Assembly (NCBI GenBank): GCA_024958715.1
Contig: JANWUS010000055.1
Coordinates: forward strand, 1 to 64,000
Source: Cyanobium sp. FGCU52
Lineage (GTDB): Bacteria > Cyanobacteriota > Cyanobacteriia > PCC-6307 > Cyanobiaceae
Direction: 5' to 3'
Length of the DNA stretch: 64,000 nt
The notes under the pieces are model-generated. The model had not been told where the DNA came from. It did no database searches and saw only the letters and a program-made list of their open reading frames with translations. A program made the translations under genes and the position numbers. Below are positions 18,948-27,652 of this stretch, in pieces (positions within the stretch are counted from its first letter, which is position 1; each line of letters starts with the position of its first letter).

Positions 18948-19799
18948 TCACCCCGCTCCGTCACCGGGGAACAGCTGGCGCAGCCAGGCGGCCATCGCCG
19001 TGTTCACCGCCAGCAGATCCGCCACCGGCTGGTCGGTGAACGGCAGGGTGGGCAGGTAGCCGTCGGGGCCGAATTCCGGCGTGAGGGTGAGGCGGGTTCG
19101 CCCGCGGCGGCGCTGGTCGGCGGCGAACAGCTCCCAGCAGGCCCGGTGGGCCGCCAGCGCCTGGGCGTGCTCCGGCGCTAAGGGATGGCTCACCTGGGGG
19201 CCCTGGGCATGGCCCACCCGGGCATGGATGTGATCCACGCGATCGGCGATCGCCGCGATCGGCGCCAGCTCCGGGGTCATCAGCCGCTCGCTGGCCACGC
19301 ACCAGTGGCTGACGTCGGCCGTGAGCCGCAGGGAGGGAAACGCCTCCAGCCAGGTGCCGATGCGCCAGGGATCGCTGAGGCTGCGGGAGCGGTGCGTCTC
19401 GACGCTCACCGGCAGAGCGCTCGCCTCCACCAGCGCCAGGGCCCGGGCGAAGAACGCCTGCTGCTGCTCCCAGGGCCAGCTGTCGCTGCCGGTGATCAGC
19501 GTCACCTGCAGGGGGGCGAGCGCCGCGCACGCCTCCAGCTGCTCCGCAAGCTCCCGCAGGTGATCGTCCGGTCCTCGCGCCAGGTCCGGCACGTAGTCGC
19601 CGCCGCTCACCAGCTCCACCACCAGGGCCAGGCCCGCGTCATCGAGCCGGGCCGCGATCTCCTGCAGCGGCAGGACCGTCAGGGCCGGGTGGCGCAGGTT
19701 GGCCTCGAGCCCGTCGAACCCGTGGCGCCGGGCCCGCGCGATCGCCTCCTCCAGGCTGCCGGCGAAGCCCCAGAGGCTGTGCAGCAGAACCGTGTCCAT
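18948..19799 (-). CDS. sugar phosphate isomerase/epimerase-like TIM barrel protein
   Basis: The 283-residue protein starts at ATG 19799 (MDTVLLHSLWGFAGSLEEAI). It shows the xylose-isomerase-like TIM barrel pattern: HGFDGLEANLRH, then VELVSGGDY, PVSVETHRSRS, LTADVSHWCV and VDHIHARVGHAQGPQ. The last two supply the Asp/His and HIHAR metal-site motifs. The substrate cannot be assigned. It is divergent from the guanidine-hydrolase operon, sharing the 250-base control region that holds the NtcA box and riboswitch. It could be co-regulated or simply adjacent. Confidence 0.78.
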   Translation of the reverse strand: MDTVLLHSLWGFAGSLEEAIARARRHGFDGLEANLRHPALTVLPLQEIAARLDDAGLALVVELVSGGDYVPDLARGPDDHLRELAEQLEACAALAPLQVTLITGSDSWPWEQQQAFFARALALVEASALPVSVETHRSRSLSDPWRIGTWLEAFPSLRLTADVSHWCVASERLMTPELAPIAAIADRVDHIHARVGHAQGPQVSHPLAPEHAQALAAHRACWELFAADQRRRGRTRLTLTPEFGPDGYLPTLPFTDQPVADLLAVNTAMAAWLRQLFPGDGAG

Positions 19800-19849
19800 G
19801 GCAGCAGACGGTGGCGCCGGCACCTTCGCCGCAGGGGGCCGGCGGTTCG

Positions 19850-19863
19850 GTAGCGGTCGGTAC
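19850..19863 (+). promoter_or_regulatory. NtcA-binding site (GTA-N8-TAC) with appropriately spaced -10
   Basis: GTAGCGGTCGGTAC is an exact match to the cyanobacterial NtcA consensus GTA-N8-TAC. A -10-like hexamer CAAGAT lies at 19886-19891, 22 bases downstream, the spacing of NtcA-activated (class II) promoters. Transcription would begin near 19898, shortly before the riboswitch at 19911. This predicts activation under nitrogen limitation (high 2-oxoglutarate). The -10 is imperfect at its first base. A chance match is possible in GC-rich DNA, but position and spacing favour function. Confidence 0.65.
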
Positions 19864-19910
19864 AGGGAGCTTGGCCCGGACCGCACAAGATCGGGGGGCG
19901 GAAGCAGTTC

Positions 19911-20018
19911 CTAGGGTTCCGATCCCGCTCCGGCCCTGCCGGCGGGGTGACTGGTCCGAGAGGAGCTCACCGGCGCCCGTGGGTGTCCGGTTGCACGGAG
20001 GGACAAAAGCCCGGGAGA
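19911..20018 (+). ncRNA. guanidine-I (ykkC) riboswitch
   Basis: Three conserved blocks of the guanidine-I aptamer are present in order: CTAGGGTTCCG (19911-19921), CTGGTCCGAGAG (19951-19962) and ACGG at 19995 running through GGGACAAAAGCCCGGGAGA to 20018. Between them are the expected hairpins: CCGGC-cct-GCCGG nested in a CCCGC/GCGGG stem, and ACCGG/CCGGT. The class binds guanidinium and usually switches genes on. It lies directly before the guanidine hydrolase gene, the arrangement known from other cyanobacteria. The 31 bases from aptamer to ATG have no T-run, so control is probably at translation or by Rho rather than an intrinsic terminator. Confidence 0.93.
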
Positions 20019-20049
20019 CCGCTCAGCCCCACCTCCTGCCCTTCCCCCC

Positions 20050-21240
20050 ATGAGCGAAGCCTCCGGCCCCGCAGGCGCCTTCGATCGCCGCTTCTCCGGC
20101 GAGGGCGCCGCTGCCCTCGAGAAGGAGGCCCGGCTGCCCCTCACCGGCTGGCAGCAGGAGGTGGAGCTGGGCCAGCGCTACGGCCTCGAAGCGGCCGAGA
20201 GCATCGTCGACCGGCGCATCTCCACCTTCTCGCGCGGCGAGCTGCCCCACTTCGCGGGCATCAACACGTTCATGAAGGCGCCTTACATCGAGGACGTCAA
20301 CCGCGTCGGCGAGTTCGACGTGGCGATCGTGGGCGTGCCCCACGACTCCGGCACCACCTACCGCCCCGGCACCCGTTTCGGCCCCCAGGGCATCCGCCGC
20401 ATCTCCGCCCTCTACACCCCCTACAACTACGAGATGGGCGTCGATCTGCGCGAGCAGATCACCCTCTGCGACGTGGGCGACATCTTCACGATTCCCGCCA
20501 ACAACGAGAAGAGCTTCGATCAGATCTCCAAGGGCGTGGCCCACGTCTTCGCCAGTGGCGCTTTCCCGATCATCCTCGGCGGCGACCACTCGATCGGCTT
20601 CCCCACCGTGCGCGGCGTCTGCCGCCACCTGGGCGACAAGAAGGTGGGCATCATCCACTTCGATCGTCATGTCGACACCCAGGAGATCGACCTCGACGAG
20701 CGCATGCACACCTGCCCCTGGTTCCATGCCACCAACATGGCCAACGCCCCGGCCGAGAACCTGGTGCAGCTGGGCATCGGCGGCTGGCAGGTGCCACGCG
20801 AGGGGGTGAAGGTGTGCCGGGAGCGGGGCACCAACGTGCTCACGGTGACGGACATCTGCGACATGGGGCTGGAGGCGGCGGCCCAGTACGCCATCGAGCG
20901 CGCCACCGACGGCACCGACTGCGTCTACATCTCCTTTGACATCGACTGCATCGACGCCGGCTTCGTGCCGGGCACCGGCTGGCCCGAGCCCGGCGGCCTG
21001 CTGCCCCGCGAGGCGCTCAAGCTGCTGGAGCTGATCGTGCGCAACGTGCCTGTCTGCGGCCTCGAGGTGGTGGAGGTGTCGCCTCCCTACGACATCAGCG
21101 ACATGACCTCGCTGATGGCCACCCGGGTGATCTGCGATGTGATGGCCCACCTGGTGGTGAGCGGCCAGCTGCCGCGCAAGCAGAAGCCGGCCTGGCTGCA
21201 CGAGGCCTGCAACATGAACGTCGACCGCAAGTGGAGGTGA
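20050..21240 (+). CDS. gdmH: nickel-dependent guanidine hydrolase
   Basis: The 396-residue ureohydrolase-fold (arginase/agmatinase) enzyme is predicted to convert guanidine to urea and ammonia. Metal ligands are H180 in GGDHS, D205/H207/D209 in HFDRHVD and D297/D299 in SFDIDCID. The DRHVD in place of the usual DAH-x-D, the SFDID-x-x-DAGFVPGTGWPEPGG block and the long N-terminal extension (about 85 residues) match cyanobacterial GdmH (Synechocystis Sll1077 type) rather than agmatinase. The context is decisive: a guanidine-I riboswitch upstream and HypA/HypB-like nickel chaperone genes downstream (gap 3 bases), as in the described GdmH-GhaA-GhaB system. Earlier annotations often call this agmatinase. 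Confidence 0.92.
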   Translation: MSEASGPAGAFDRRFSGEGAAALEKEARLPLTGWQQEVELGQRYGLEAAESIVDRRISTFSRGELPHFAGINTFMKAPYIEDVNRVGEFDVAIVGVPHDSGTTYRPGTRFGPQGIRRISALYTPYNYEMGVDLREQITLCDVGDIFTIPANNEKSFDQISKGVAHVFASGAFPIILGGDHSIGFPTVRGVCRHLGDKKVGIIHFDRHVDTQEIDLDERMHTCPWFHATNMANAPAENLVQLGIGGWQVPREGVKVCRERGTNVLTVTDICDMGLEAAAQYAIERATDGTDCVYISFDIDCIDAGFVPGTGWPEPGGLLPREALKLLELIVRNVPVCGLEVVEVSPPYDISDMTSLMATRVICDVMAHLVVSGQLPRKQKPAWLHEACNMNVDRKWR

Positions 21241-21243
21241 GCC

Positions 21244-21651
21244 ATGCATGAAGTCGACATGACCAAGTGCCTGCTGCTCTCCATGAACGACTGGAAGCGG
21301 CAGCATGCCCCCCGGCAGCCCCGGGTCAGCACCGTGCACCTGCAGGTGGGCGCCTTCACCTGCGTCGAACCCGATCAGCTGGTGTTCACCTGGGAGGCTG
21401 CCGTGCAGGGCAGCTGGCTCGCCGGCGCCCGGCTGGCGATCGAGCCGGTGCCCCTGGTGGGCCGCTGCGTGCTGTGCGCCTCCACCTACGCCCCCCTGCA
21501 GGAGCAGGCCTACCGCTCGCCCTGCTGCGATCACCCGATGGAGGAGATCGTCAGCGGCCGCGAGCTGCGGATTCGCTCGGTGGAGTACGCCCTCGACGAT
21601 CCGCCCGCCATCGCCACTCCGTCTACCCCCGCCTGCGCGCCCTGCGCCTGA
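21244..21651 (+). CDS. ghaA: HypA-like nickel metallochaperone for guanidine hydrolase
   Basis: The 135-residue HypA-family protein has the nickel-binding MHE N-terminus intact ([11 protein letters not shown]). The zinc site has C75 and C78 (CVLC), but the second pair is adjacent cysteines C94-C95 followed by D and H97 (SPCCDH) instead of the usual C-x2-C. In the known system GhaA and GhaB load Ni2+ into GdmH. No hydrogenase genes are nearby, so a dedicated GdmH chaperone is the best reading. The start is three bases after the gdmH stop. The C-terminal tail is Pro/Ala-rich. Confidence 0.88.
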
Positions 21652-21656
21652 GACCG

Positions 21657-22370
21657 ATGCACATGCCCCTGGAAGACACCCTCGGCCTCAACCTGCTGGC
21701 GGCCAACCAGCACCAGGCCGAGCACAACCGCGACCACTTCGACACCTGGAACCTGCTCTGCCTCAACGTGATGAGCAGCCCGGGCGCCGGCAAGACCTCC
21801 CTGCTGGAGCGCTCCCTGACGGCCCTTGCCGGTGAGTTCGCCATGGCGGTGCTGGAGGGCGACATGACCACCCAGCTCGATGCCCAGCGGCTGGAGGCGG
21901 TGGGCGTGCCGGTGGTGCCGATCACCACCGGCCGGGCCTGCCATCTCGATGCGGCGATGGTGAGCGGCGGCCTGCGGCTGCTGGCCGAACGGCTCGATCC
22001 CGCCAGCCTCGATCTGCTCTGGGTGGAGAACGTGGGCAATCTCGTGTGCCCGGCGGAGTTCGAGGTGGGCGAGCACCGCAAGGTGGCCCTGCTCAGCGTC
22101 ACCGAGGGCGACGACAAGCCGCTCAAGTATCCGGTGATGTTCCGCGAGGCGGACTGCGTGCTGATCACCAAGGTGGATCTGCTGCCTCATCTGCCCGTGG
22201 AGGTGGAGCGCATCGAGGCCCACGTCCGCCAGGTGAATCCCCATTGCGCGGTGATCCGCGTCTCGGCCACCACCGGCGAGGGTCTGGCCGCCTGGCACGG
22301 CTGGCTGCGGGAGCAGCGCGCGGCCCTGGCCGCCCTGCCCTTGGCGGCGCCGCTGGTGGGGGTGGCATGA
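21657..22370 (+). CDS. ghaB: HypB-like GTPase for nickel delivery to guanidine hydrolase
   Basis: The 237-residue SIMIBI-class GTPase has a P-loop SSPGAGKT (40-47), [31 protein letters not shown], a [13 protein letters not shown] switch region and TKVDLL for guanine recognition. These are the standard HypB landmarks. No His-rich nickel-storage stretch is present at the N-terminus. It follows ghaA by five bases, and its stop overlaps the next start (ATGA). GTP-driven nickel insertion into GdmH together with GhaA is the established role of this pair. The start at ATG 21657 is chosen because an upstream frame overlaps ghaA. Confidence 0.92.
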
Positions 22371-23743
22371 GCACGCCCTCAGCTCTTTCTCTCCAGCCGG
22401 GCATCGCGCCCGCGGAGGCGCGGGCCGAGCTCCAGGCCCGGGGCATCCGCTACGCCCTGGCCAGCTTCGTCGACCTGCACGGCGTCAACAAGGCGAAGGC
22501 GGTGCCGATCCACCACGTCGAGGCGATGCTGGCCGGATCGGAGCTGTTCACCGGCGCCGCCCTCGACGGTGTTCCGCAGGACGTGAGCGACGACGAGGTG
22601 GCGGCCGTCCCCGACCTGACCTCCGCCACCGTGCTGCCCTGGCGGCCTGACACCGTATGGCTGGCGAGCAATCTCCACCTGCACGGCAAGCCGTTCGAGG
22701 CCTGCAGCCGCAACATCCTCTGTCGGGTGCGCGACCAGGCGGCCCGGATGGGGCTGCGCTTCAACCTCGGCATCGAAACGGAGTTCTTCGTGCTGCGCCG
22801 CCTGGATGATGGCCGGCTGGTGCCCGCCAGTGCTCAGGACACGCTCGAGAAACCCTGCTACGACCTGCGCGGCCTGCTCGACAACCTCGACTGGCTCGAC
22901 GAGCTGGTGGAGGCGATGAACGCCCTGGGCTGGGGGGTGTACTCGTTCGACCACGAGGACGCCAACGGCCAGTTCGAGACCGACTTCGGCTACGCCGACG
23001 GCCTCGTCACCGCCGACCGCGTCACCTTCTTCAAGCTGATGGCCAGGGAGATCGCCCGCCGCCATGGCCTGATCGCCAGCTTCATGCCCAAACCGTTCGC
23101 CGACCGCACCGGCAGCGGGGCGCACTTCAACATGTCGCTGGCCGATCTGGGCAGCGGCGTCAATCTGTTCGAGCCCGAAGACGGTTCCCCTGGCGGGGTG
23201 AGCGAACTTGCACGCCGGTTCATCGCCGGCGTGCTGCGCCATGCCCCCGCCATCTGCGCCGTGATCGCTCCCACGGTCAACAGCTACAAGCGGCTGGTGG
23301 TGCAGGGCAGCATGTCCGGCTTCACCTGGGCGCCGGTGTTCGTCTGCTACGGCAACAACAACCGCACCAACATGCTGCGCATCCCCGGTGCCGGCGGCCG
23401 GGTCGAATGCCGCGCCGCCGACAGTGCCTGCAACCCCTACCTGGCCGCGGCGATGCTGCTGGCGGCCGGCCTTGAGGGTATCCGCGAGGGCCTCGACCCC
23501 GGCGCCCCCAACCTCGTGAATGCCTATCGCCTCTCCGCCGAGGAGCGGCAGCAGCAGGGCCTCACCACCCTGCCCCGCACCCTCGGCGAGGCCATCGAGG
23601 CCTTCGCCGCCGACCCCCTCGGCCGCGAGGTGTTCGGTGAGGCCATGGCCGAGGCCTTCCTCTCCTTCAAGCGCCAGGAATGGGCCGACTACCACGGCAC
23701 CATCTCGGCCTGGGAGCACGACCGCTACCTGGAGCTCTTCTGA
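22367..23743 (+). CDS. glutamine synthetase-family ligase (GlnT/type III-like)
   Basis: The 458-residue protein has a glutamine synthetase beta-grasp domain (about 20-120) and catalytic domain. Active-site features visible are [11 protein letters not shown] (metal-binding Glu pair), the [11 protein letters not shown] glutamate loop, [16 protein letters not shown] and [17 protein letters not shown]. It is distinct from the housekeeping GlnA, with the shorter divergent form often named GlnT or gamma-glutamyl ligase. It could capture the ammonia released from guanidine or ligate glutamate to an amine. The sequence alone cannot decide. ATGA overlap with ghaB places it firmly in the operon. Confidence 0.85.
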
Positions 23744-23807
23744 GCCCTGGGTCGTTCCCGCAGGCTCTCCCGCCGCCGTCCGTTCCACCCCATCCCCCCA
23801 TCCCGCC

Positions 23808-24818
23808 ATGGCCCGTTCCACTCCCCTCCGTTCCCGCCGGCGTCTGCTGGGCCTGCTCCTGCTCGCCGCGATCGGTGGCGGTGGCCTCAGCAGCTGCGTC
23901 AAGCCGCCGTCCACCGAAGCGCCGGTGCGCATCGGCTACAGCGCCTGGCCGGGCTGGTTCCCCTGGAAGGTGAGCGAGGAGAAGGGACTGTTCGCCAAGG
24001 CCGGCGTGCCGGTGACGCTGCAGTGGTTCGACGGCTACCTCGACTCGATCAACGCCCTCAACGCCGGCCAGCTCGACTGCAACAGCCAGACGCTGGGGGA
24101 CACCATCAGTTCGGTGGCCGGCGGTGCCGACCTGCAGGTGGTGCTCACCAACGACAACTCCACCGGCAACGACCAGATCATCGCCGCCGAGGGCATCCGC
24201 ACCGTGGCCGACCTCAAGGGCAGGAAGGTGGCCGCCGAGGAGGGCACGGTCGACCACTACCTGCTGCTGCTGGGCCTGAAGAAGGCGGGGCTCTCCGCCA
24301 GCGACATCACCTTCGTGCCGCTGGAAACCGGGGCCGCGGCAGCGGCCTTCGTGGCCGGCAAGGTGGATGCCGTGGGGGTGTTTGCCCCCTTCACCACCCA
24401 GGCGCTCAAGCGTCCGGGCAGCACCACCCTGTTCTCCTCGCGCGATTTCCCCGGCGCCATCAGCGACCATCTGGTCTGCCGCCGCGATTTCGTGGCGAAG
24501 AACCCGGAGAAGATCCAGAAGATCGTCAACACCTGGTTCGCCACCCTCGATGCGATCCAGGCCGATCCCGAAGGCACCCTCAAGATCATGGCCGCCCGGG
24601 CCGGGGTGAGCGAGGCCGATTACAAGGCCTACGACGCCGGCACCCGCATCTTCACGCTCGAGGAGAACCGCAAGGCGTTCCAGCCCGGCAGCACGATGGC
24701 CTCGCTGCCCTACGCGGCTGAGCAGATCAGCGCCTTCCTGCAGGAGGTGGGGCTCGCCAAGACCCCGCCCAAGCTCGATGGCCTGCTCGAGCCGAAGTTC
24801 GTGAATGCGGTGCCGTGA
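23808..24818 (+). CDS. ABC transporter substrate-binding lipoprotein (TauA/SsuA/NMT1-like)
   Basis: The 336-residue periplasmic protein starts at ATG 23808. It has an Arg-rich n-region, a hydrophobic core and a lipobox (GGGLSSC), so it is probably lipid anchored. The mature part begins VRIGYSAWPGWFPWKVSEEKG, typical of the SsuA/TauA/NMT1 group that bind small organic nitrogen or sulfur compounds. Given the guanidine riboswitch and hydrolase upstream, guanidinium or a substituted guanidine is the likeliest ligand (inference). A 64-base pyrimidine-rich gap separates it from the ligase gene. The permease start overlaps its stop. Confidence 0.87.
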   Translation: MARSTPLRSRRRLLGLLLLAAIGGGGLSSCVKPPSTEAPVRIGYSAWPGWFPWKVSEEKGLFAKAGVPVTLQWFDGYLDSINALNAGQLDCNSQTLGDTISSVAGGADLQVVLTNDNSTGNDQIIAAEGIRTVADLKGRKVAAEEGTVDHYLLLLGLKKAGLSASDITFVPLETGAAAAAFVAGKVDAVGVFAPFTTQALKRPGSTTLFSSRDFPGAISDHLVCRRDFVAKNPEKIQKIVNTWFATLDAIQADPEGTLKIMAARAGVSEADYKAYDAGTRIFTLEENRKAFQPGSTMASLPYAAEQISAFLQEVGLAKTPPKLDGLLEPKFVNAVP

Positions 24819-25591
24819 GGGAGTCGACCTTCTGGCCGCGGCTGCTGGCCCATCCCTGGATCCTGGGGATCGCCGGCATCCTGATCGTGCTGCTGCTGTG
24901 GACGGGGGTGACCGCCACGGGCCTGGTGGATCGCCTGTTCCTGCCCAGCCCCGCCGCCGTGCTGGCGGCGGGCCAGGCCCAGGCCTCCGCCGGCATCCTC
25001 GGGCGCGATCTGGTGGCCAGCGTCACCCGTGTGTTCACCGGCTTTGCGCTCTCGGCGGCGGTGGCCCTGCCGCTGGGAATCGCGATGGGCACGAACCGGG
25101 CGATCTGTCAGCTGCTGGAGCCGCTGATGGGCCTGATCCGCTACATGCCGGCGCCGGCCTTCATCCCGCTGCTGATCATCTACTTCGGCCTGGAGGAGCT
25201 GCCGAAGGTGATGCTGATTTTCATCGGCACCGTGTTCTTCAACACCCTGATGATCATGGATGCGGTGAAGTTCGTGCCCCACGAACTGGTGGAAACCGCC
25301 CTCACGCTAGGCGGCAAGCGCGCCCAGTTGCTCACCCGCGTGATCACCCCCTGCATCGCTCCCCAGGTGCTCGACACCTACCGCATCAACATGGCCTCCG
25401 CCTGGAACCTGGTGATCGTGGCCGAGCTGGTGGCCGCCAACGAGGGGCTGGGCAAGCGCATCAGCCTGGCCCAGCGCTTTCTGCGCACCGATGAGATCTT
25501 CGTGGGGCTGATCGTGATCGGCGTGATCGGTCTGCTGATCGATCTGGGCTTCCGCCTGCTGATGCGGCGCGCCTGTTCCTGGGCCAACTGA
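24815..25591 (+). CDS. ABC transporter permease (TauC/SsuC-like)
   Basis: The 258-residue permease starts at GTG 24815, overlapping the binding-protein stop by four bases (GTGA). About six membrane helices are predicted. The cytoplasmic loop around VPHELVETALTLGGKRAQLL, preceded by FFNTLMIMDAVK, is the EAA-type ATPase contact of the TauC/SsuC family. It forms the channel as a homodimer with the ATPase encoded ten bases downstream. It is part of the guanidine-linked import module. Confidence 0.9.
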   Translation: MRESTFWPRLLAHPWILGIAGILIVLLLWTGVTATGLVDRLFLPSPAAVLAAGQAQASAGILGRDLVASVTRVFTGFALSAAVALPLGIAMGTNRAICQLLEPLMGLIRYMPAPAFIPLLIIYFGLEELPKVMLIFIGTVFFNTLMIMDAVKFVPHELVETALTLGGKRAQLLTRVITPCIAPQVLDTYRINMASAWNLVIVAELVAANEGLGKRISLAQRFLRTDEIFVGLIVIGVIGLLIDLGFRLLMRRACSWAN

Positions 25592-25601
25592 GTCGACTCC
25601 C

Positions 25602-26372
25602 ATGCATCTGTCCGTCGATTCGGTCTCCAAGAGCTTCGGCGAGGGCAAGGCCCGCAAGCTCGTGCTGGAGAACGTGAGCTTCACGATCAGCTCGGGTGAG
25701 TTCGTGGCCCTGGTGGGCAGCTCCGGCTCGGGCAAGTCCACGATGATGCGGCTGGTGGCCGGCCTCGATCGCCCCAGCGCCGGCACCATCACCGTGGATG
25801 GCGTGCCGGTGAAGGGGCCCGGCTCCGATCGGGGCATGGTGTTCCAGAAGTACAGCCTCTACCCCTGGCTCACGGCGGCCCAGAACGTGGCCTTCGGCAT
25901 GAGCCTGCAGGGGCTGCCGCGGCGGGAGGTGCAGGAGCGCACCAGCTACTTCCTCGAGGTGGTGGGGCTCAGCGATGCGGCGCGGCGGCTGCCGCGGGAA
26001 CTCTCGGGCGGGATGCAGCAGCGGGTGGCGATCGCCCGCGCCCTGGCCGCCGAGCCGAAGGTGCTGCTGCTCGATGAGCCGTTCGGCGCCCTCGATCTGC
26101 AGATCCGGGAATCGATGCAGGAGTTTCTGCACGGTCTCTGGCAGCGCACGGGCCTGACGGCCCTGCTGATCACCCACGACCTGGAGGAGGCCCTGCTGCT
26201 GGCCCAGCGGGTGCACATCCTGGCGCCGCGCCCTGGACGGATCGTGCGCTCGGTGGCCGCCGATCTCCCCCACGGCGAACTGGCCCACCTGCGCGTCACC
26301 CCGGAGTTTCTGGCCCTGCGGGAGGAGCTGGCGGCCTGCCTGCGGGGGCTCGACGGCGGCCTAGGGCTCTGA
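25602..26372 (+). CDS. ABC transporter ATP-binding protein (TauB/SsuB-like)
   Basis: The 256-residue ATPase has the Walker A motif GSSGSGKST, a Q-loop (MVFQKYSLYPWLT), the signature LSGGMQQR, the Walker B motif VLLLDEPFGALD and the H-loop ITHDLEEA. All catalytic residues are present. The family energises TauABC/SsuABC-type uptake of small organic compounds. Neighbours are the cognate permease upstream and, one base after its stop, the Rieske oxygenase, which implies a single transcript. Confidence 0.93.
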   Translation: MHLSVDSVSKSFGEGKARKLVLENVSFTISSGEFVALVGSSGSGKSTMMRLVAGLDRPSAGTITVDGVPVKGPGSDRGMVFQKYSLYPWLTAAQNVAFGMSLQGLPRREVQERTSYFLEVVGLSDAARRLPRELSGGMQQRVAIARALAAEPKVLLLDEPFGALDLQIRESMQEFLHGLWQRTGLTALLITHDLEEALLLAQRVHILAPRPGRIVRSVAADLPHGELAHLRVTPEFLALREELAACLRGLDGGLGL

Positions 26373-26373
26373 G

Positions 26374-27390
26374 ATGGAGGCGCCGCGCTTCCTGCCGGCC
26401 GGGATCTACGGCTCCGCCGCGGTGGCGGAGGCGGAGCGGCGCCACTACGCGCCCCGGTTCTGGCACCCGCTGGTGCCGCTTGAGCAGGTGCCCGAGGGGC
26501 ACGCCCTGGCCCTGGAGCTCCTCGGCCTGCCGCTGCTGCTCACCCATCCCCCGGGCGGCCCCCGCCTGTTCCTCAACCGCTGTCCCCATAGGGCGGTGGC
26601 CCTGCTGCCTCCCGGCGAGGAGGCCCGCCCCTGCCGCCGGCTGGTCTGTCCGTATCACGGCTGGACCTACGACCTGGACGGGCACCTCCAGGCGGCCGCC
26701 CGTGAGGCCGAGTTCCTCGAGCCCTTCCGCCGCGACGACTGGCCGCTGGAGAGCCTGCCGCTGCAGGTGCGCGCCGGGCTGATGTGGGGCGCGATCGGCC
26801 CCGATCCCCTGCCGCTGGAGCAGCAGCTCGATCTGGTGCTGGAGGTGGCGGGGGCGGATCTGGAGCGGCCGCGGCGCCTGCTGGGAACCCTGCGGCGCTC
26901 CCTCGCCTGCGACTGGAAGATCGCCCACGACAACACCCTCGACGATTACCACGTGGCGATCGCCCATCCCACCACCCTGCACCGCGAGCAGGGGCCGGTG
27001 CGCCACTACCGCCATCAGCTGGGCCAGTGGGCGAACCTGCTGGCCACGCCCTTGGCGGGGGGTGAGTTCCTCACCTTCGGTCTGCCGCCCTGGATCCACC
27101 TGCTGCTGTGGCCCGATGGCCGGCTGGCCCTGCTGCAGTTCCCGCCGGAGGGTGCGGGTCGCTGCCGGATGGACCTGTGGCTGCTGGGCGACGCCGCGCT
27201 GCTGCCACGCGCCGGCGAGCTTCTGGCGGAACTGGAGCGCTTCCTTGAGGAGGATCGGCGGCTGGTGGAGGCGGCCCAGGTGGGGTACGGGGCCCTGCCG
27301 CCTGAGTTCAGGCCCGGCCCTCCCCATCGCCTGGAGCAGCGGATCGTGCACCATCAGGAGCGCTACCGGCTCCTGATGGTGCACGCCTGA
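26374..27390 (+). CDS. Rieske-type non-heme iron oxygenase
   Basis: This is a 338-residue Rieske oxygenase alpha-subunit-like protein. The [2Fe-2S] ligands are C70/H72 (RCPHR) and C92/H95 (VCPYHGW). The mononuclear iron site is H193 and H198 in DDYHVAIAHP, with D294 (EEDRRLVEAAQVG) as the probable carboxylate. It has the domain order of aromatic-ring or amine-oxidising (choline-monooxygenase-like) members, and is slightly short. It begins one base after the importer ATPase gene, at the end of the guanidine-linked operon. A role in oxidative N-dealkylation of a substituted guanidine before hydrolysis is an attractive inference. No dedicated ferredoxin or reductase is adjacent, but the general ferredoxin/PetH pool could serve. 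Confidence 0.85.
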   Translation: MEAPRFLPAGIYGSAAVAEAERRHYAPRFWHPLVPLEQVPEGHALALELLGLPLLLTHPPGGPRLFLNRCPHRAVALLPPGEEARPCRRLVCPYHGWTYDLDGHLQAAAREAEFLEPFRRDDWPLESLPLQVRAGLMWGAIGPDPLPLEQQLDLVLEVAGADLERPRRLLGTLRRSLACDWKIAHDNTLDDYHVAIAHPTTLHREQGPVRHYRHQLGQWANLLATPLAGGEFLTFGLPPWIHLLLWPDGRLALLQFPPEGAGRCRMDLWLLGDAALLPRAGELLAELERFLEEDRRLVEAAQVGYGALPPEFRPGPPHRLEQRIVHHQERYRLLMVHA

Positions 27391-27403: not shown

Positions 27404-27652
27404 TCAGTTGGCGCTGGGGTCCACCTGATAGTCGTGAGGCTGGATGCCCAGGTAGACGGCTTCCTTGAACAGGGCCTGCTTGGCCGCGACATCCCCCTTG
27501 CTCTGGGCGGCGGCCCAGCGGAGCCGCAGGGAGGAGAGCAGGGCCTGGCGGCGCGGCTCGGTGCCGGCGGGTGCTGCGGAACTGGCGGGGGTCATGGCCG
27601 CGGCCTGGGAAGGGTGTGCACTGATTTCATCGTATCGGTTGCTACCAGCCAT
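27404..27652 (-). CDS. small conserved-looking soluble protein (82 aa)
   Basis: The 82-residue protein starts at ATG 27652, overlapping the stop of the coiled-coil gene upstream by one base (TGATG). The C-terminal half (RRQALLSSLRLRWAAAQSKG, then ALFKEAVYLGIQPHDYQVD) looks like a compact helical domain. A second possible start at 27595 would shorten it by 19 residues. No family recognised. It is the third gene of a minus-strand unit with the coiled-coil anchor and the ATP-grasp protein. Confidence 0.6.
   Translation of the reverse strand: MAGSNRYDEISAHPSQAAAMTPASSAAPAGTEPRRQALLSSLRLRWAAAQSKGDVAAKQALFKEAVYLGIQPHDYQVDPSAN

Follow-up and report, generated by a model that had tools for sequence, protein, structure and literature searches.

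A predicted NtcA-activated promoter stacked on a Guanidine-I riboswitch at the guanidine operon of Cyanobium sp. FGCU52 and its relatives

We found that the putative guanidine-assimilation operon of Cyanobium sp. FGCU52 is very likely driven by a canonical class II promoter activated by NtcA, with transcription predicted to start in the outer helix of a Guanidine-I riboswitch. From comparison of sequences, we put the probability of this reading at about 85%. In this strain and most of its examined relatives, guanidine-use genes probably lie behind both a nitrogen-hunger promoter and a guanidine-sensing RNA, and their enzymes would be made only when both signals are present. When nitrogen is short, NtcA with 2-oxoglutarate would switch on transcription, and binding of guanidine to the leader RNA would then be required for full expression. 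The AND logic of nitrogen shortage and guanidine that had been proposed in the initial annotation is thus the expected behavior of this arrangement; its clause that genes are expressed only when guanidinium is present would follow by analogy from the riboswitch class. The features are collected in Table 1, and "the window" denotes the whole 64-kb stretch of DNA that was analyzed.

Table 1. Features around the predicted NtcA promoter and in the operon behind it (positions in the window).
Feature	Position	Strand	Basis
Sugar-isomerase-like gene, AP_endonuc_2 / xylose isomerase-like TIM barrel	18948..19799	-	PF01261, 42 bits; likely ATG at 19799
Divergent -10-like hexamer GAAGGT	19822..19827	-	22 nt from the NtcA box, toward the isomerase gene
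NtcA box GTAGCGGTCGGTAC	19850..19863	.	exact palindromic consensus GTAN8TAC
-10 element CAAGAT	19886..19891	+	22 nt past the NtcA box
Predicted transcription start	19898	+	from box centre at -41.5, published class II geometry
Outer helix P0, 5ʹ strand GCGG	19898..19901	+	97/101 family loci, 0/52 outside
Guanidine-I riboswitch aptamer RF00442	19900..20019	+	78.5 bits, gathering score 63, E 2.7e-12, full length
Outer helix P0, 3ʹ strand CCGC	20019..20022	+	GGGAG-N-CCGC in 101/101 family loci, 0/52 outside
Short C-rich terminator-less leader to the gdmH ATG, 27 nt	20023..20049	+	no terminator-like site found
gdmH-like, Ni-dependent guanidine hydrolase homologue, arginase family, 396 aa	20050..21240	+	PF00491, 262 bits
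HypA-like nickel chaperone (GhaA-like)	21244..21651	+	PF01155, 88 bits
HypB-like nickel GTPase (GhaB-like), putative start	21642..22370	+	TIGR00073, 281 bits, over cut-off
Type III glutamate-ammonia ligase-like	22370..23743	+	TIGR03105, 582 bits, cut-off 470
ABC transporter substrate-binding protein, putative guanidine importer	23793..24818	+	TIGR01728, 232 bits
ABC transporter permease	24815..25591	+	PF00528, 86 bits
ABC transporter ATPase	25602..26372	+	PF00005, 122 bits
Rieske-domain oxygenase-like protein	26374..27390	+	PF00355, 45 bits

In a canonical NtcA-activated class II promoter, GTAN8TAC lies near -41.5 and the -10 element has the form TAN3T; one described NtcA site sits 22 nt from its -10 element, and GTN10AC is the highly conserved part across 508 NtcA sites (excerpts of PMC3898017). 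The initial annotation had described an exact GTA-N8-TAC followed 22 bases later by a -10-like CAAGAT, and both were found as described. CAAGAT agrees with TAN3T in the A and the last T and lacks the first T, and its spacing is exactly 22 nt. The form without the leading T (nAnnnT) is the usual -10 form of Cyanobiaceae at gdmH and amt. The aptamer had been placed about 20 bases past the -10 element, which is right for the conserved core CTAGGG at 19911; the Rfam model starts 8 nt after the -10 element. One NtcA gene over the curated cut-off was found in the genome of the strain (376 bits, cut-off 245).

The box alone means little, because the window holds two GTAN8TAC sites against an expectation of 0.34 (a count of two was reached in 3 of 100 shuffles) and the whole 3.48-Mb genome holds 45. 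The composite GTA-N9-AC-N23-A-N3-T was also found twice in the 64 kb, against 0.24 expected and with none of 100 shuffles reaching two; both matches are one palindromic box, that of Table 1, scanned on two strands. The second GTAN8TAC of the window (27632-27645) lies by the start of an overlapping reading frame. The composite scan found no correctly spaced -10 element beside it, and this site is probably a chance match.

That the box at 19850-19863 is real, beyond chance, was concluded from its conservation across relatives. Guanidine-I riboswitches were collected from the genus (35 of 42 genomes positive), the family (83 of 251) and the phylum (123 of 386), and upstream regions were compared for 102 loci of Cyanobiaceae, 53 from the rest of the class and 30 from f31, which belongs to the same phylum but to another class. 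The main scan covered 150 nt upstream with the last 25 nt left out, and shuffled sequences gave the expectation. GTA-N8-NAC (that is, GTA-N9-AC) was found ahead of the aptamer in 100 of the 102 family loci, where shuffles gave a mean of 2.9 and a maximum of 7, and in all 19 family genera that have the aptamer. The exact GTAN8TAC was found in 14/102 family loci within 150 nt (shuffle mean 0.17) and in 15/102 within 200 nt, the 3ʹ half-site in Cyanobiaceae being usually NAC. Half-site spacings of 6, 7, 9 or 10 stayed near chance (at most 3/53).

The positions of these elements were also conserved. When one locus was taken from each of the 19 genera, the GTA, the AC and the A of the -10 element were invariant and the T of the -10 element was kept in 18, with the letters between these positions mostly variable. 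The distance from the start of the box to the aptamer core was 58-62 nt in 100 family loci and 61 nt in 65 of them. nAnnnT was located exactly 22 nt past the box in 90/100 family loci, and the adjacent spacings gave 1 and 13. The density of the composite was 5.58 per kb across the promoter stretch and 0.038 per kb in the flanks of these loci, a difference of about 150 times. These results supported the reading of the region as an NtcA promoter in the initial annotation, because the parts and spacing fit the definition excerpted from PMC3898017 and the arrangement is conserved.

The same results bear on the reading that the box arose by chance and that the riboswitch is the sole control behind an ordinary sigma-70 promoter. 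The mild excess of exact boxes in the window and their number in the genome agree with it. However, the box is position-locked and spacing-specific in the family and near chance in f31, which lacks NtcA (see below), and no sigma-70-type promoter match was found in 19700-20150. Conservation already refutes a chance match, and we regard this reading as barely credible.

Known targets of NtcA were scanned in the same way. In Cyanobiaceae, amt served as a positive control: 25 of its 30 loci had the relaxed box and a -10 element 21-23 nt away. The result for glnA, which is named among NtcA targets in PMC3898017, was mixed: the exact box was found in 12/25 loci and a well-spaced -10 element in 7/25. 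For urtA, the exact box was found in only 1 of 24 loci within 400 nt; this gene was uninformative, and amt and glnA were used instead. Because glnA and urtA often fail it, the scan can miss genes that are under NtcA control. We also considered that the family box might be a conserved weak box, with NAC as a suboptimal half-site, since glnA had the exact form in 6/8 loci of the genus. This idea was dropped because amt showed the same relaxed form (25/30).

The stacked arrangement extended to the rest of the class. Outside the family, the exact box was found within 150 nt in 32 of the 53 class loci (0.92 expected) and GTA-N8-NAC in 36 (3.8 expected); within 200 nt, the exact box was found in 38/53 loci and 24/29 genera. 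By downstream gene, the 200-nt scan gave the exact box at 31/38 gdmH loci, 4/6 loci of a urea-carboxylase-associated protein, 2/7 transporter-only loci (substrate-binding protein) and 1/2 others, where the labels besides gdmH were assigned by reading protein starts. The -10 element was looser outside the family: TAnnnT at 22 nt made the sharpest peak, yet at 14 of 41 sites. The aptamer finder dropped two class loci (L160 and L161) and one f31 locus (L209). When these were checked, the exact box was present in both class loci and absent from the f31 locus.

The f31 lineage, which we take to be a non-photosynthetic one such as Gastranaerophilales, served as a control. From it, 31 loci were used, a subset of its riboswitch matches. 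Within 150 nt, both the exact box (0.50 expected) and GTA-N8-NAC (1.9 expected) were found in 1/30 loci; within 200 nt, the exact box was found in 2/30 loci and 2/16 genera. NtcA was matched in none of the 20 f31 genomes tested, and over the cut-off in all 12 class genomes tested. An SMR-type exporter motif lay downstream of 29/30 f31 riboswitches. By sequence comparison, then, both the family and the class conserve the stack of predicted NtcA promoter and guanidine riboswitch, which is near chance in f31.

Physiological reports on the homologous Synechocystis operon, sll1077-1082, bear on which regulator uses the box. Ammonium lowers its transcripts, an effect for which the protease Slr1821 was reportedly needed (PMC10094980, in part); therefore a route besides NtcA could contribute. 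Guanidine-linked induction of the sll1077 operon was also reported (PMC8390497, in part). The Slr1821 dependence would fit a box used by another CRP-family factor or nitrogen regulator, as would eight further weak matches to the NtcA model in the Cyanobium genome, although all of these are below the cut-off. Set against them are the exact NtcA consensus, the class II geometry as excerpted from PMC3898017 and the same promoter form at amt in the family. We consider a regulator other than NtcA improbable.

The genes behind the promoter form a putative guanidine-assimilation operon. The closest solved structures to the gdmH product are PDB 7esr and 7oi1, 'Probable agmatinase 2' (764 bits over residues 16-396), which we take to be Synechocystis Sll1077/GdmH. 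Close homology together with adjoining nickel chaperone genes was taken to mark a GdmH, and HypA- and HypB-like genes follow here. The glutamate-ammonia ligase-like gene (22370-23743) is sited between the nickel chaperone genes and those of the ABC importer; its product possibly captures the released ammonia or acts on another substrate. A type I GlnA over the curated cut-off was missing in 13 of 21 genomes of the genus, and all of them had other glutamine synthetase-like matches. A Rieske gene was reported downstream in most Synechococcus/Cyanobium (PMC10119275, in part).

The conserved Guanidine-I core letters were present in the RF00442 alignment of this putative guanidine-binding RNA. What follows the aptamer differs between the family and the other loci. 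Among the loci outside the family, 50/52 have a matching arm and then a T-run behind the 3ʹ aptamer strand AAAAGCCCGGGAG, which makes an intrinsic terminator that overlaps this strand. In the family, such a terminator was found in 0/101 loci (L124 and L153 were left out of the terminator count). The contrast is partly confounded by base composition, because a T-run is likelier in AT-rich genomes. No intrinsic terminator was found in 19700-20150. Without a terminator, the output of the riboswitch is therefore not the usual one, and an intrinsic terminator is probably not used for the second step in Cyanobiaceae.

Family loci have instead two strands that can pair as an outer helix P0 around the aptamer core (Table 1), and its 5ʹ strand GCGG coincides with the predicted +1. 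Because both strands are near-invariant in the family, P0 is without covariation support, and GCGG could also be kept as an initial transcribed sequence. Since the terminator arm was lost, an outer helix was gained and the leader is short, control is most likely at translation initiation, and to this we give somewhat better than even odds.

Folding of the leaders pointed weakly the same way. Without P0, the modelled accessibility of the start region was below that of shuffled leaders in 24/32 loci, with 3 ties, though the difference was small (means 0.38 vs 0.45); this would favor translational control slightly. When P0 was forced, the start region opened in real and shuffled leaders alike (0.59 and 0.60), and the minimum-energy fold of the whole leader was no stabler than shuffles (z +1.2). 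Sequestration of the start codon by the 3ʹ P0 strand was considered as well, since CGCUCA can pair with UGAGCG over the start codon in the window. It was rejected as a general mechanism, because in a comparison by eye of one leader per genus the complement was kept only in L015 and L021. A riboswitch that still acts on transcription in the family, through an unseen terminator or pausing, would agree with the overlapping terminators outside it, which indicate that transcriptional output is ancestral or at least common. The lack of such terminators across the family and around the aptamer in the window, and the mere 27 nt left after the aptamer here, make this the less likely reading, and we prefer translational control.

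The neighboring isomerase-like gene had been described as divergent from the same region. It is indeed on the minus strand, with a PF01261 match, and the box at 19850-19863 probably also fires it, as judged from the sequence around the box. A homologue of this divergent gene was found in 13 family loci. On the minus side, nAnnnT at 21-23 nt was found in 10/13 of the loci with the isomerase gene versus 7/88 of those without (Fisher p 2e-7, which overstates independence because the isomerase loci are related: they fall in the kin g1, g18, g48 and g51, with no match in g51 and 1/2 in g48). No riboswitch was found on the isomerase side, and the scan of the window showed no other at the gathering score. 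The isomerase gene would therefore receive the nitrogen input alone, from the shared palindromic NtcA box. One could turn the relation around, so that the box serves mainly the isomerase gene and gdmH is transcribed incidentally; the well-placed divergent -10-like hexamer in the isomerase loci is consistent with this. However, with the homologue in so few loci and the box in aptamer register in 100/102, it is highly improbable. A bidirectional box reconciles both counts, and we keep the reading in which the box serves the guanidine operon and probably its neighbor. The initial annotation had passed over three features of the region: the -10 element without its leading T, the riboswitch without a terminator, and the box probably serving the isomerase gene as well.

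In some relatives, parts of the arrangement were lost. At the Prochlorococcus gdmH loci (L329-L345), the aptamer was found in 0/17 by pattern and in none of the 8/17 searched with Rfam, and the exact NtcA box in 0/17 in up to 420 nt (one locus has 102 nt upstream), so that both inputs seem to have been lost together. In Synechococcus RCC307 (L309:1376-1476) and in a MAG (L304), gdmH lies behind the NtcA box GTATCGCCTGTTAC and a diverged ykkC-like RNA, which keeps the frame but has altered core letters and scored 24 bits against RF00442 (cut-off 63). In the family, 2/251 genomes, both of one genus, gave strong DNA matches; the third matching genome of that genus has the canonical aptamer. The diverged RNA may be dead or of altered specificity.

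Compared with the canonical NtcA class II promoters of glnA, urtA, nirA and amt, the promoter here has the same GTAN8TAC-type cyanobacterial box, spacing of 22 nt and centre at -41.5. It differs in that the transcript would begin at a guanidine riboswitch helix, the 3ʹ half-site in the family is usually NAC and the -10 element usually lacks the leading T. With the other cyanobacterial RF00442 (ykkC) RNAs before gdmH/sll1077, it shares the aptamer core and the downstream gdmH-hypA-hypB-ABC operon, but the Cyanobiaceae form is without the overlapping terminator and has the GCGG/CCGC helix and a very short leader. Riboswitches before sll1077 (PMC8390497) and before the marine Synechococcus cluster with the Rieske gene (PMC10119275) have already been published, as excerpts of these papers state. 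The closest precedent for the combination is Synechocystis gifB, where NtcA at the promoter and a glutamine riboswitch in the 5ʹ UTR bring two nitrogen signals to one gene (PMC6316151, in part). At gifB, NtcA acts as a repressor and the RNA senses glutamine; in the present case, NtcA is expected to be an activator, and the riboswitch responds to a nutrient. Among the literature matches listed, as far as their excerpts go, no link between NtcA and the guanidine riboswitch was found; work from 2025 may already have it, and the NtcA part may already be published elsewhere. New here may be the replacement of the terminator by P0 in Cyanobiaceae and the possible two-way NtcA box.

Taken as a whole, the comparison suggests a class-wide, probably ancient stacked control, of which Cyanobiaceae would have rebuilt the RNA half. 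The place of the terminator would have been taken by a helix at the transcript end, with nucleotides 1-4 of the mRNA as its 5ʹ strand; the result would be an ON switch without a terminator, most likely a translational one. In one branch, a two-way NtcA box would pass both signals to the guanidine operon but only the nitrogen signal to the neighbor. For this scheme in all its parts, our confidence is about even.

Engineers could probably use the native promoter and the riboswitch as two separate inputs, and in picocyanobacteria of high GC content the form without a terminator would serve as a compact, portable switch for guanidine. Guanidine is a nitrogen-rich compound. The arrangement offers a concrete test of whether it is a nutrient or a toxin for cyanobacteria, because the lineage whose guanidine riboswitches control an exporter lacks the nitrogen box. 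If our reading is true, cyanobacteria would eat guanidine only when it is at hand and nitrogen is short at the same time.
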